Positions 24,639 through 27,779 of a stretch of 34,503 bases of DNA are shown here, piece by piece; the first letter of the stretch is position 1; every line of letters begins with the position of its first letter. This DNA is from an uncultured Pelagibacteraceae bacterium (GTDB lineage Bacteria > Pseudomonadota > Alphaproteobacteria > Pelagibacterales > Pelagibacteraceae): NCBI GenBank assembly GCA_902569105.1, contig CACFTE010000011.1:1-34503 (forward strand), in the 5' to 3' direction. The notes below the pieces were generated by a model. It was not told the origin of the DNA, did no database searches, and worked only from the letters and a program-made list of their open reading frames with translations. The position numbers and the translations under genes are program-made.

Positions 24639-26129
24639 ATGAAATTATTTTTTCTACTTGGAAATCAACTTTTTTCTGAAAAATACTTAGAAAAATTCAG
24701 AAAAGACCATATCTTTTTTATGGCAGAAGATTACCAATTATGTACCTACGAAAAACACCATAAACAGAAAATACTTTTATTTCTTTCTGCTATGAGGTCG
24801 CATGCAGAAAAATTAAAGAAAAATAAGTTCAAAATTGAATATTCGTCAATTGAGGATAAGTCATTTAAATCAGATTATATAGAAAAATTAAAAAAAACTA
24901 TAAAGACACAAAAAATTTCAAAAGTATCAAGTTTTGAAATTGAAGATAAATTTTTTGAAAAAAAAATAACAAAATTTTTTAAAAAAGAAAAAATTGAATG
25001 GAATGTCATTCAAACCCCAATGTTCATAAACTCAAGAGAAAATTTTAAAAAATACTTATCAAAATCAAAAAAACCTTTTATGGCTGTTTTTTACAAAGAA
25101 ACTAGAAGAGAATTAGATATTTTAATGAAAAAAGATGGAAATCCTGAGGGTGGGAAATGGAGTTTTGATGAAGAAAATAGAAACAAACTTCCTAAAAATA
25201 TAAAAATTCCGAAGTTTCCTAAAATAAACGAAACGACACATACAAAAAAACTTAAACCGGTTATAGAAAAAGTTTTTAAAGATCACCCTGGAAATACAAA
25301 AGAATTCTGGTTTGCTACTGAGTATGAAGATGTTGTGAAGTTGCTAAATTTTTTTATCAAAGAAAAATCAAATTTATTTGGTGATTATGAGGATGCAGTT
25401 GATCAGAAGGATAACATATTATTTCATAGCGCATTAAGTCCTTATATAAACTTAGGTTTAATTACACCTGAATTTATAGTTCAAAAAGTTTTAGATTTTC
25501 ATCATAAACACAAAATAAGATTAAATTCTTTAGAAGGATACATTCGCCAAGTTATTGGATGGAGAGAGTTTATGAGAGGGATTTATCAAAGTTATTCCGA
25601 TGAAATGGAAAATAGAAATTTTTTCAAGCATAATCGAAAAATGAAAAAATCATGGTATGAGGGATCAACTGGTCTTCCACCCTTAGATCATGCAATTAAA
25701 AATGCCTTAAATTATGGGTGGTCACATCATATTGAAAGATTAATGATTTTATCAAACATAATGAATCTCTGCGAGATCAAACCAACTATTGTTTACAAAT
25801 GGTTTATGGAAATGTTTGTCGACTCCTCAGATTGGGTGATGGTACCAAATGTTTATGGTATGGGTTTATTTAGTGATGGTGGAATATTTGCAACCAAACC
25901 ATACATTTGTGGTTCAAGTTATTTTATGAAGATGATGGATTTTAAAAAAGGTGATTGGTGTAACATAATGGATGGTTTATATTGGAGATTTATTGACCGA
26001 AACAGAAAGTTTTTTCTAAAAAACCCAAGACTATCAATGATGGTAAGAATTTTTGATAAAATGAAAACTGATAGAAAAAAATTAATTTTATCAGCAGCTG
26101 ATAAATTTATAAAACAAAATACACTTTAA
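24639..26129 (+). CDS. Photolyase-related protein, FeS-BCP/PhrB (CryPro) type, apparently without the Fe-S cluster ligands
   Basis: The 496-residue product is of the deoxyribodipyrimidine photolyase-related family, whose members repair (6-4) photoproducts or act as cryptochromes. The N-terminal alpha/beta domain (LFFLLGNQLF, then KHHKQKILLFLSAMRSHAEKLK) is followed by the helical FAD domain with EGYIRQVIGWREFMRGIYQ, TGLPPLDHAIKNALNYGWSHHIERLMIL and VMVPNVYGMGLFSDGGIFATKPY. By my alignment from memory to Agrobacterium PhrB, the first Fe-S Cys is Tyr386 (IVYKWF), the C-x-x-C pair is deleted between D434 and D439, and only C441 remains. DUF2256 follows directly on the same strand. Repair activity is plausible but unproven. 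Confidence 0.9.
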   Translation: MKLFFLLGNQLFSEKYLEKFRKDHIFFMAEDYQLCTYEKHHKQKILLFLSAMRSHAEKLKKNKFKIEYSSIEDKSFKSDYIEKLKKTIKTQKISKVSSFEIEDKFFEKKITKFFKKEKIEWNVIQTPMFINSRENFKKYLSKSKKPFMAVFYKETRRELDILMKKDGNPEGGKWSFDEENRNKLPKNIKIPKFPKINETTHTKKLKPVIEKVFKDHPGNTKEFWFATEYEDVVKLLNFFIKEKSNLFGDYEDAVDQKDNILFHSALSPYINLGLITPEFIVQKVLDFHHKHKIRLNSLEGYIRQVIGWREFMRGIYQSYSDEMENRNFFKHNRKMKKSWYEGSTGLPPLDHAIKNALNYGWSHHIERLMILSNIMNLCEIKPTIVYKWFMEMFVDSSDWVMVPNVYGMGLFSDGGIFATKPYICGSSYFMKMMDFKKGDWCNIMDGLYWRFIDRNRKFFLKNPRLSMMVRIFDKMKTDRKKLILSAADKFIKQNTL

Positions 26130-26258
26130 GTGAAAAAAGAAAACCTTCCTTCAAAAATTTGTCCTGTTTGTAAAAGACCTTTTGTTTGGCGTAAGAAATG
26201 GAGGCTTAATTGGGAAAGAGTAAAATATTGTTCAAAGAAGTGTTCTAAGCTTAGTTAA
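26130..26258 (+). CDS. DUF2256 zinc-ribbon mini-protein
   Basis: A GTG directly following the stop of the photolyase-related gene opens a 42-residue frame. It has [19 protein letters not shown] (C11, C14) and [10 protein letters not shown] (C34, C38). This is the DUF2256 signature, C-x2-C-x-R-P-F-x-W-R-K-K-W with a second C-x3-C pair, presumably binding zinc. No function is established that I know of. DUF2256 genes are often found next to photolyase/cryptochrome genes, so a partner role is plausible. It overlaps the convergent second photolyase-like gene by 8 bases. Confidence 0.93.
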
Positions 26259-27393
26259 ATGTTGAAATAATTTTTGGAATATAATTTTTAAAATTAAAAA
26301 ATCCTTTATTACAGTATTGCCAAGAATATTGATCAAGCTTTCTATATAAAAAATTTATTTCTAAACTATTTAAATTTAAGTAATCTAGGTTTTCACCTAC
26401 TGTTGGATATAATGCAACATAATTTTCATTAATATTTTTAATTTCGCTAATATCGATAGAATTACAATCAATAGATTGATCTTTTAATCTTTTCTCTTGG
26501 TCACTAATAAGAAGTAATTTAAATTTCTCAACTTTTTCACTAAGTTTAATAGATCTGTTTTGGTTTTTATTAGAAACTAAATATATTTTTTTAAATTTGG
26601 TATTTTGAAAATCGGTGTTTTCAAAAGATAAATTATTTTCAAAAATTAATAAACTTTTATCCTCAATATTTTTTGGATTATTAAAATCTTGTTTAATAAT
26701 TGAGTAAGTTTTTTCACAAATTTTTGGAGGGGCGTTTTCGTTTAACTTAATATTATTGAACCTATTATTAGTAAATTTTTTAATATTCCATTCGCTTGCT
26801 AAATAATGTTTACCCTGTGTTTGAACACCAGCCACCCATCGCCATCCAAGAGTATTGGATGCAGCATCTCCATCGTAAAGATGTTGCATAAATAACTCCG
26901 CACCTAATTGCCATGGTAATTCTAATGTAAAAATCCAAATACTTGCAAACCACATTCTTGTATGATTGTGTAAATAGTTGTTATTCTTCAACTCATTTAT
27001 CCAATAATTAAAGCATTCGATATTGGTTTTTCCTTCAACTGCATTAATGTAAATTTTATTATCTTTAAACTCTTCTCTGATTTTTTTTAATTCTATTAAA
27101 TAATCAGACCATACATTTGGTCTTAATTCCAACCAACCTTTCCAGTAAGTTCTCCAAAGAACCTCCTGAATAAACTTTTCATTTTTTATGAAAGAAAATT
27201 TTTTTAATGATTTTCTTATAACCTCTAGTTCGTTAATCACACCATGAGTTATATAAGGTGATAGACATGAGACATTTGATCTTTTATCTGGACCGTAATC
27301 AAAATTTCTTTGTTTTGAGTAATCTGAAAGATTATTTTCTACAAAATTTTCTAATTTCTCAACAGCCGAAGCTCTTGACGCTTTAAAATTCAT
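26251..27393 (-). CDS. Photolyase-like FAD protein with apparent circular permutation (FAD domain first)
   Basis: The 380-residue product starts directly in the photolyase FAD domain: [20 protein letters not shown] and [15 protein letters not shown], then [37 protein letters not shown] and [20 protein letters not shown] (residues ~6-190) are all canonical FAD-contacting blocks. The usual N-terminal antenna domain is absent there. Residues ~247-380 instead look like that domain: [14 protein letters not shown] mirrors the family start L-V-W-F-R-x-D-L-R-L-x-D-N; [16 protein letters not shown] matches the strand before the antenna helix; [12 protein letters not shown] matches the F-T-P-F-K/R segment that normally leads into the linker. 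Function is unknown. PsiE-like gene lies 5 bases upstream. Confidence 0.88.
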
Positions 27394-27398
27394 AAATG

Positions 27399-27779
27399 TT
27401 ACTTTGATTTTTTCTTTTTAAGTCCTAACTTGTCGCTATGCCTTAGTCTTAAAATTACAATTGCCGATGCAATAAGGACTATTGCAACTGCTTCATAAAC
27501 TAATGCAGATGCATCCATTTCTTTGCCTTGTAATATTATAAATCGTGCGAGTGCAGTAATTGCTATTAATAAAGGCAAAGTGATACTAATGGATTGTTGG
27601 CTCCAAAAAACTCTTACCATTGCCATTACCTCTAAATAAAGGAACATTAAAAGAAGGTCAGCTAAATTTACAGACTGTTCTAAGATCATTCTCTTTAATT
27701 CTATTCCAACAGCAATTACAGTACTAATTAAAATAATACTAAGTAAAATAAATTGTAAATTTTTTGTTATTTTGTCCAT
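27399..27779 (-). CDS. PsiE-like (phosphate-starvation-inducible E family) membrane protein
   Basis: The 126-residue product has four predicted helices: LQFILLSIILISTVIAVGIEL, LADLLLMFLYLEVMAMVRVFW, LPLLIAITALARFIILQG and LVYEAVAIVLIASAIVILRL. The block LMFLYLEVMAMVRVFW with the following ALARFIILQGKEMDA is typical of the PsiE family. Its function is unknown despite the name. The start overlaps the stop of the upstream membrane protein by one base, and the permuted photolyase-like gene follows, so the three are probably one transcription unit. Confidence 0.87.
   Translation of the reverse strand: MDKITKNLQFILLSIILISTVIAVGIELKRMILEQSVNLADLLLMFLYLEVMAMVRVFWSQQSISITLPLLIAITALARFIILQGKEMDASALVYEAVAIVLIASAIVILRLRHSDKLGLKKKKSK

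Follow-up and report, generated by a model that had tools for sequence, protein, structure and literature searches.

The window, a stretch of 34,503 nucleotides from an uncultured member of the Pelagibacteraceae (SAR11), encodes on its reverse strand a protein of 380 residues, read from an ATG start, that is a probable light-driven DNA-repair enzyme (Table 1). Pfam placed a FAD_binding_7 domain at residues 74-198 (E 7.7e-16, above cut-off) and gave no other match at E<=1, DNA_photolyase (PF00875) included. A phmmer search of PDB sequences aligned residues 3-197 with residues 200-395 of E. coli photolyase (1dnp; E 7.8e-16), and the protein therefore begins approximately where the FAD domain of class I enzymes begins. 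This agrees with an earlier note on this DNA, made from the sequence alone, which had placed the new N-terminus near the usual interdomain junction. The note had also read the domains in FAD-first order, which is what we found: a FAD domain at residues 1-223 is followed by an alpha/beta domain at about 241-380, and by sequence and Pfam the protein does not have the class I order, an N-terminal antenna domain plus a FAD domain. Both sequence motifs that the note had named are present. Its FAD domain was correctly identified, but the end point was set too early, since the fold match runs beyond the proposed residues ~6-190 to about residue 223.

Table 1 Features of the locus in the window and of FAD-first loci on plasmids
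Feature	Position	Strand	Basis or remark
Probable NewPHL/Phr7-type photolyase gene, 380 aa	26251..27393	-	ORF, Pfam FAD_binding_7, AlphaFold2, homologues
Residues 1-223, photolyase FAD/catalytic domain	26725..27393	-	VIA to 2j07, phmmer to 1dnp
HNHTRMW motif, residues 142-148	26950..26970	-	sequence, residue conservation
DGDAASN motif, residues 174-180	26854..26874	-	sequence, residue conservation
Residues 241-380, C-terminal alpha/beta (Z) domain, predicted antenna-like fold	26254..26673	-	AlphaFold2, VIA, profile match
Second photolyase gene, PhrB-like (DPRP + FAD_binding_7), convergent	24639..26129	+	PF04244 E 5.7e-63, PF03441 E 2.6e-9
DUF2256 gene, 42 aa, GTG start, converging on the NewPHL gene	26130..26258	+	PF10013 E 1.8e-19
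PsiE-family gene	27399-27779	-	ends five bases before the NewPHL start codon
Deinococcus plasmid FAD-first photolyases	L265 2899-4269, L270 2411-3829, L273 1842-3215, L272 1896-3187		fused in three, two ORFs in QL22
Persicobacter plasmid FAD-first ORF directly upstream of a second photolyase/cryptochrome-like ORF	L267 2863-5494, L271 2288-5054		overlapping as listed

Of the 77 named SAR11 loci that leave 2 kb or more of room, 38 have a PhrB-like gene converging on the NewPHL gene. The DUF2256 gene sits between the two photolyase genes of the window, and its 3' end shares 8 bases with that of the NewPHL gene; a DUF2256 match occurs in 20 of the same 77 loci, always with a convergent PhrB-like gene. 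In 45 of 80 named SAR11 loci a PsiE-family match is present on the strand of the NewPHL gene, immediately upstream of it. An AarF/UbiB kinase gene adjoins the NewPHL-type gene in Ruegeria and Peteryoungia and lies three genes downstream in Asticcacaulis (L264, L268 and L269). Searching the window's own genome with the 380-residue protein recovered the protein itself and no second match at E<=0.01. In this genome, which is 84% complete, FAD_binding_7 matches two genes at E<=1e-4, the one under study and its convergent PhrB-like neighbor, whereas PF00875 matches none at E<=1e-10; the product of the gene under study is thus the genome's best candidate for CPD photorepair.

The FAD domain, its active site and its distribution

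Modeling of the whole protein with AlphaFold2, from an alignment of the window with 49 SAR11 sequences, gave a pLDDT of 91.8 and a pTM of 0.92, and VIA superposed residues 1-223 on residues 173-411 of 2j07 (Z 16.3, rmsd 2.7, 210 aligned). The SAR11 sequences came from a scan of named loci in which 80 of 593 confirmed places, all SAR11, were kept, 49 of the 80 entering the structure alignment; named NewPHLs from other groups came from plasmid records. Comparison with 23 diverse homologues of common architecture (32-75% identity to the window protein) revealed that H142, N143, H144 and R146 of the first motif and D174, D176 and N180 of the second are kept in all 23, as are E77, W80, W161 and W184, while W186 is kept in 22. 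E77, W80, W161, N180, W184 and W186 align with E. coli E274, W277, W359, N378, W382 and W384 (numbers counted along the 1dnp alignment), which have roles in the photolyase active site and electron chain. The position of the third tryptophan, F109 here, holds Trp in none of the 23 homologues (five of them have gaps), and in place of a triad there is a tryptophan dyad, W161 and W184, in 23/23. A dyad of this kind is reported for the Dinoroseobacter NewPHL and fits the missing third Trp here (excerpt of PMC8948257). By inspection, cysteines for an Fe-S cluster are absent: residues 1-240 hold C43, C127 and C226 only, with nothing like the C-x2-C...C cluster that follows the FAD domain in the Deinococcus FAD-first proteins.

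In the mechanism that we propose, the N-terminal domain would bind FAD, and light-excited FADH- would reduce a pocket-bound cyclobutane pyrimidine dimer by one electron and split it; a two-tryptophan chain of W184 and W161 would then re-reduce the flavin. In NewPHLs the C-terminal domain is said to cap the pocket and the antenna chromophore to have been lost. By analogy, the SAR11 tail would more likely close the FAD pocket than harvest light and may hold no antenna chromophore, and CPD repair with a preference for single strands can be expected of the SAR11 protein on the same grounds.

Within the SAR11 order, 227 of 247 genomes match the protein at E<=1e-10 and 179 at E<=1e-90, and we take the 179 as putative carriers of orthologues. 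The other 48 match no better than E 1.9e-20 and probably represent different photolyases; G008, G023 and G184, three of the 48, each have a single FAD_binding_7 match within a frame of 474-477 aa. This inverted photolyase type is a common gene in one family of the SAR11 order, that of the window, and a rare one in the second family, where 6 of 53 genomes match at E<=1e-90. None of the full-length matches listed for the order has an open frame longer than 416 aa, which leaves no space for an additional antenna domain. Exceptions among the matches listed are G044, which has an internal TGA, and G146, whose match starts at residue 22, and four matches end early (G237 at residue 305, G044 at 299, G245 at 254 and G229 at 237). 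In the class, 29 of 337 genomes match at E<=1e-30: four SAR11, 21 others matched into the tail (query residue >=364, BLAST) and four with tail-less FAD-domain genes (L055-L058). Scans without N-terminal trimming showed no PF00875 in the NewPHL-type ORFs L053, L047, L046 and L054 or in the tail-less L057. The order is FAD-first in all full-length homologues aligned, and no homologue with both an N-terminal antenna domain and this tail was found among the full-length homologues examined. Viral-contig stretches matched our search patterns in 25 cases, none of which encodes a relative, and the tail is missing from all ten phage records, each of which covered 49-52% of the query.

The protein might instead be a light sensor of the cryptochrome kind, which would fit a FAD domain that cryptochromes have in common and a repair activity that is, for the SAR11 protein, predicted. 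We consider this quite improbable, because the residues aligned with E. coli E274, W277 and W384 are kept in 22 or 23 of the 23 homologues, and because the Phr7-type proteins described from Dinoroseobacter and Methylobacterium are given as CPD photolyases (excerpt of PMC9426592). A truncated, decaying photolyase gene that has lost its antenna domain is suggested by a length below that of class I photolyases and by the internal stop in one listed homologue (G044), and is hardly credible given conservation over the full length with invariant residues in both domains. The matches in 227 (E<=1e-10) and 179 (E<=1e-90) of the 247 genomes of the order likewise argue that the gene is not a truncation.

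Fold and kinship of the C-terminal domain

In the full model the tail has strands of at least three residues at 247-250, 270-274, 310-314, 325-328 and 347-349 with helices between them; modeled alone, residues 240-380 (pLDDT 86.8, pTM 0.79) showed four strands of that length plus one that is two residues long. The prediction is thus an alternating strand-helix domain, and a tail without a Rossmann-like fold was not what we found. G333, G364 and F366 are invariant in 23/23 diverse homologues, which marks the tail as conserved rather than chance sequence. When the tail was compared by VIA, ranks 1-10 were all antenna domains of photolyases and cryptochromes (chain residues within 1-164), from 8ijy (Z 9.0, rmsd 2.8, 108 aligned) down to 5kcm (Z 7.3, rmsd 3.5, 130 aligned); these ten rows represent five distinct proteins, all prokaryotic (6-4) photolyases or CryB. 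The next rows were Can2 (Z 7.3, rmsd 7.9), shikimate dehydrogenase (7.2) and universal stress proteins (6.9), so the antenna rows exceed unrelated Rossmann-like folds by less than 2 Z units, and VIA warns that a Z under 8 may reflect merely a common arrangement. The first class I antenna was 2j07 at rank 19 (Z 6.7, rmsd 3.5, 131 aligned). Foldseek with the tail alone gave no match at E<=0.001, its first photolyase row being 3zxs_A at rank 20 (E 0.11, probability 0.95). PF00875 was sought in the tails of the 23 diverse homologues and matched none at E<=1. No PDB chain matched the family profile past position 226 of 394, and therefore no solved NewPHL was found by sequence.

Relatives with the FAD domain first occur elsewhere as split or fused genes. 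In several Alphaproteobacteria the gene for the FAD domain has a small gene behind it. The small gene of L058 encodes 153 aa with PF00875 at E 0.013, below cut-off, and has relatives in L057/L147, L148 and L149; the small genes of L055 and L056 have no phmmer match to other split antenna genes, and that of L055 has no Pfam match. A search for split antenna genes matched 3 of 190 genomes of the class and 4 of 398 genomes of the phylum; one of these four was already known, and the other three (E 2e-7 or weaker, frames of 466-473 aa) were left out. Three Deinococcus plasmids carry a fused FAD-first form of 456-472 aa. PF00875 lies behind the FAD domain in two of them (E 0.00072 and 0.001, below cut-off); the third, with 72% identity to the first, gave no PF00875 match. 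In Deinococcus sp. QL22 the FAD and antenna parts are overlapping neighbor genes, the second with PF00875 at E 0.00023, below cut-off. The FAD-first ORFs on two Persicobacter plasmids are 391 and 433 aa long, and neither has a PF00875 match in its tail.

We combined the six split genes with the Deinococcus and Persicobacter domains into a 12-domain profile of FAD-first antennas. Four of its 12 rows have no independent match, because the small genes of L055 and L056 were included by position and a KRFFQYW end and the two Persicobacter tails, which have no PF00875 match, by position. The tail profile, made from 23 sequences, matched this profile at E 1.5e-5 (probability 79, score 38.0, columns 5-148 of 168), and three further tail sets matched it with probabilities of 39, 79 and 44% and scores of 30.0, 37.8 and 30.9; in three of the four sets only the first 97-101 aligned columns match. 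The frame of Novosphingobium THN1 breaks after the FAD domain, and tail profiles were made both with and without it. Against the six split antenna genes alone the four sets reached probabilities of 31, 14, 42 and 4%, and against class I antennas 2, 2, 23 and 1% (E 0.0009-0.044). The 12-domain profile matched class I antennas at E 6.2e-11 (probability 97) and also universal stress proteins at E 1.2e-4 (probability 55, score 32.1), so scores of that size do not single out antenna domains.

Controls for the tail profile scored at most 20.5 (universal stress proteins), 13.3 (ETF) and 13.3 (response regulators). The reversed tail scored 9.6 against the 12-domain profile and at most 14.8 against other sets, and 160 column shuffles reached maxima of 17.1 (40 shuffles), 18.1 (60) and 17.9 (60). 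The control sets held 29 of 30 antenna, 24 of 30 universal stress protein, 23 of 25 response-regulator and 23 of 25 ETF loci; 6, 9, 7 and 10 loci, respectively, were dropped for ambiguous strand.

These results bear on the earlier note's reading of residues 247-380 as a diverged antenna domain. The predicted Rossmann-like fold and the antenna domains at the top of the VIA ranking support it in part, but the class I match is weak and the Foldseek result is not significant. For the class I alpha/beta domain in particular, the VIA match of the tail stood level with universal stress proteins. Our profile comparisons linked the tail to FAD-first antennas (best E 1.5e-5) and to class I antennas only weakly. 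Motifs that had been aligned by eye agree with the profile alignment to split antenna proteins, where the 12-residue segment pairs with KRFSRYWRQAQKSAF, but the probability of that alignment is 31%.

An unrelated Rossmann-like domain fused to the FAD domain, resembling an antenna through its common fold, is on balance unlikely, though it must be taken seriously. It would account for the absence of PF00875 from all 23 members, the non-significant Foldseek search, the weak direct profile match to class I antennas, the VIA scores of Can2, shikimate dehydrogenases and universal stress proteins (Z 6.9-7.3, against 6.7 for the first class I antenna) and the fact that the linking FAD-first profile also matches universal stress proteins. 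Against it stand the VIA ranking, headed by ten rows of antenna domains from the same superfamily, and the tail profile, which scores FAD-first antennas at 30-38, compared with at most 20.5 for universal stress proteins and 13.3 each for ETF and response regulators. The evidence that the tail is kin to antenna domains is thus moderate, weakened by the universal stress protein match of the linking profile. The tail, placed behind the FAD domain, is probably related to the photolyase antenna domain, in a reduced and diverged form.

Origin of the FAD-first order and relation to known photolyases

A FAD-domain HMM scored FAD-first relatives at 117-164 bits, class I-type proteins at 62-102 and the Persicobacter second genes and PhrB-like proteins at 26-40. 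In a 67-row tree of FAD domains (the L149 row was lost at domain extraction), 38 FAD-first rows fell on one side of a branch (93/94) and 27 NewPHL-type rows grouped together (99/100); this tree is unrooted and carries an unsettled bootstrap and a long-branch warning. Removing six rows (two Persicobacter and four class I-type with long end branches) gave the FAD-first branch 96/100. Uncharacterized proteins of Ruegeria, Novosphingobium, Peteryoungia and Asticcacaulis group with the window protein at 99/100.

The reversal most likely traces to an old FAD-first lineage, in which the FAD and antenna pieces would have stood in that order as neighbor genes or as a fusion. A more far-reaching version, which we hold tentatively and at somewhat less than even odds, is that the Z-domain is a degenerate antenna domain and that all FAD-first photolyases (Fe-S split pairs, fused forms and NewPHLs) have one origin, a FAD-then-antenna operon, possibly in the ancestral order, having been fused in frame without permutation. 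The earlier note had seen an apparent circular permutation. The reversed order stands, but permutation as its mechanism does not follow, since fusion of a FAD-antenna gene pair gives the same protein. A true permutation would require duplication of an antenna-first gene and then trimming that left the FAD half in front; both parts are indeed present in swapped order, and the N-terminus lies near the interdomain junction (query residue 3 against 1dnp residue 200). We nevertheless judge this improbable, because the FAD-first proteins form their own group in the tree and FAD-then-antenna neighbor genes exist in several Alphaproteobacteria and in Deinococcus sp. QL22. With such a group, and with split pairs in the same order, gene fusion suffices, and as an explanation of the reversal it is no worse than circular permutation and may be better. 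Deinococcus, a single genus with both split and fused FAD-then-antenna genes, offers a testable route to the reversed order.

Together with the domain order, predicted folds, conserved active-site residues and distribution established in this analysis, these considerations lead to our main reading, to which we give a probability of roughly 0.8: the gene encodes a CPD photolyase of the NewPHL/Phr7 type with a diverged, probably antenna-related tail and most likely an old FAD-first origin.

The NewPHL class was reportedly described by Emmerich et al. 2020 as single-strand CPD photolyases of inverted topology, and SPLs, short photolyase-like proteins, reportedly by Xu et al. 2021. NewPHLs or SPLs are named together for inverted domain topology (excerpt of PMC13274461); SPLs are also treated in PMC9178010 and are considered possible ancestors of the photolyase family (excerpts of PMC9649867 and PMC9498864). 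Phr7 consists of an N-terminal FAD domain and a C-terminal Z-domain, "an atypical, short photolyase domain", and Phr7 activity on single-stranded DNA is described for Dinoroseobacter and Methylobacterium; Phr4/Phr5 and Phr6 are photolyases with reverse domain order, and Phr7 is closest to Phr4 and Phr6 (excerpt of PMC9426592). Because inverted topology is already in print for NewPHL/Phr7, the reversed order itself is known, and the SAR11 protein fits that class by architecture and secondary descriptions. Among the literature matches listed we found no publication on a SAR11 member of the inverted type, although one may exist.

Like NewPHLs and Prochlorococcus Phr7, the SAR11 protein has an N-terminal FAD domain, a short C-terminal Z-domain, a tryptophan dyad and no Fe-S cysteine cluster, and both occur in Alphaproteobacteria and marine bacteria; no difference was found in this comparison, which was made by architecture and published descriptions. 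The SPL is described with an Fe-S cluster (excerpt of PMC9649867), whereas the window protein has no Cys cluster and carries a fused tail. Phr4/Phr5 and Phr6 of marine Synechococcus and Cyanobium place the FAD domain first and the photolyase domain second, as here, but unlike the SAR11 protein these proteins, encoded by two ORFs (Phr4/Phr5) or one (Phr6), have Fe-S cysteines and a photolyase domain recognized by InterProScan (excerpt of PMC9426592). Class I CPD photolyases (1dnp and Thermus 2j07) share the FAD-domain fold and the aligned active-site residues but have the antenna first, a third Trp and a longer C-terminal end of the FAD domain. To these known systems our analysis adds the distribution in the SAR11 order, a moderate link between the Z-domain and antenna domains, the FAD-first branch, and the split and fused pairs of Deinococcus.
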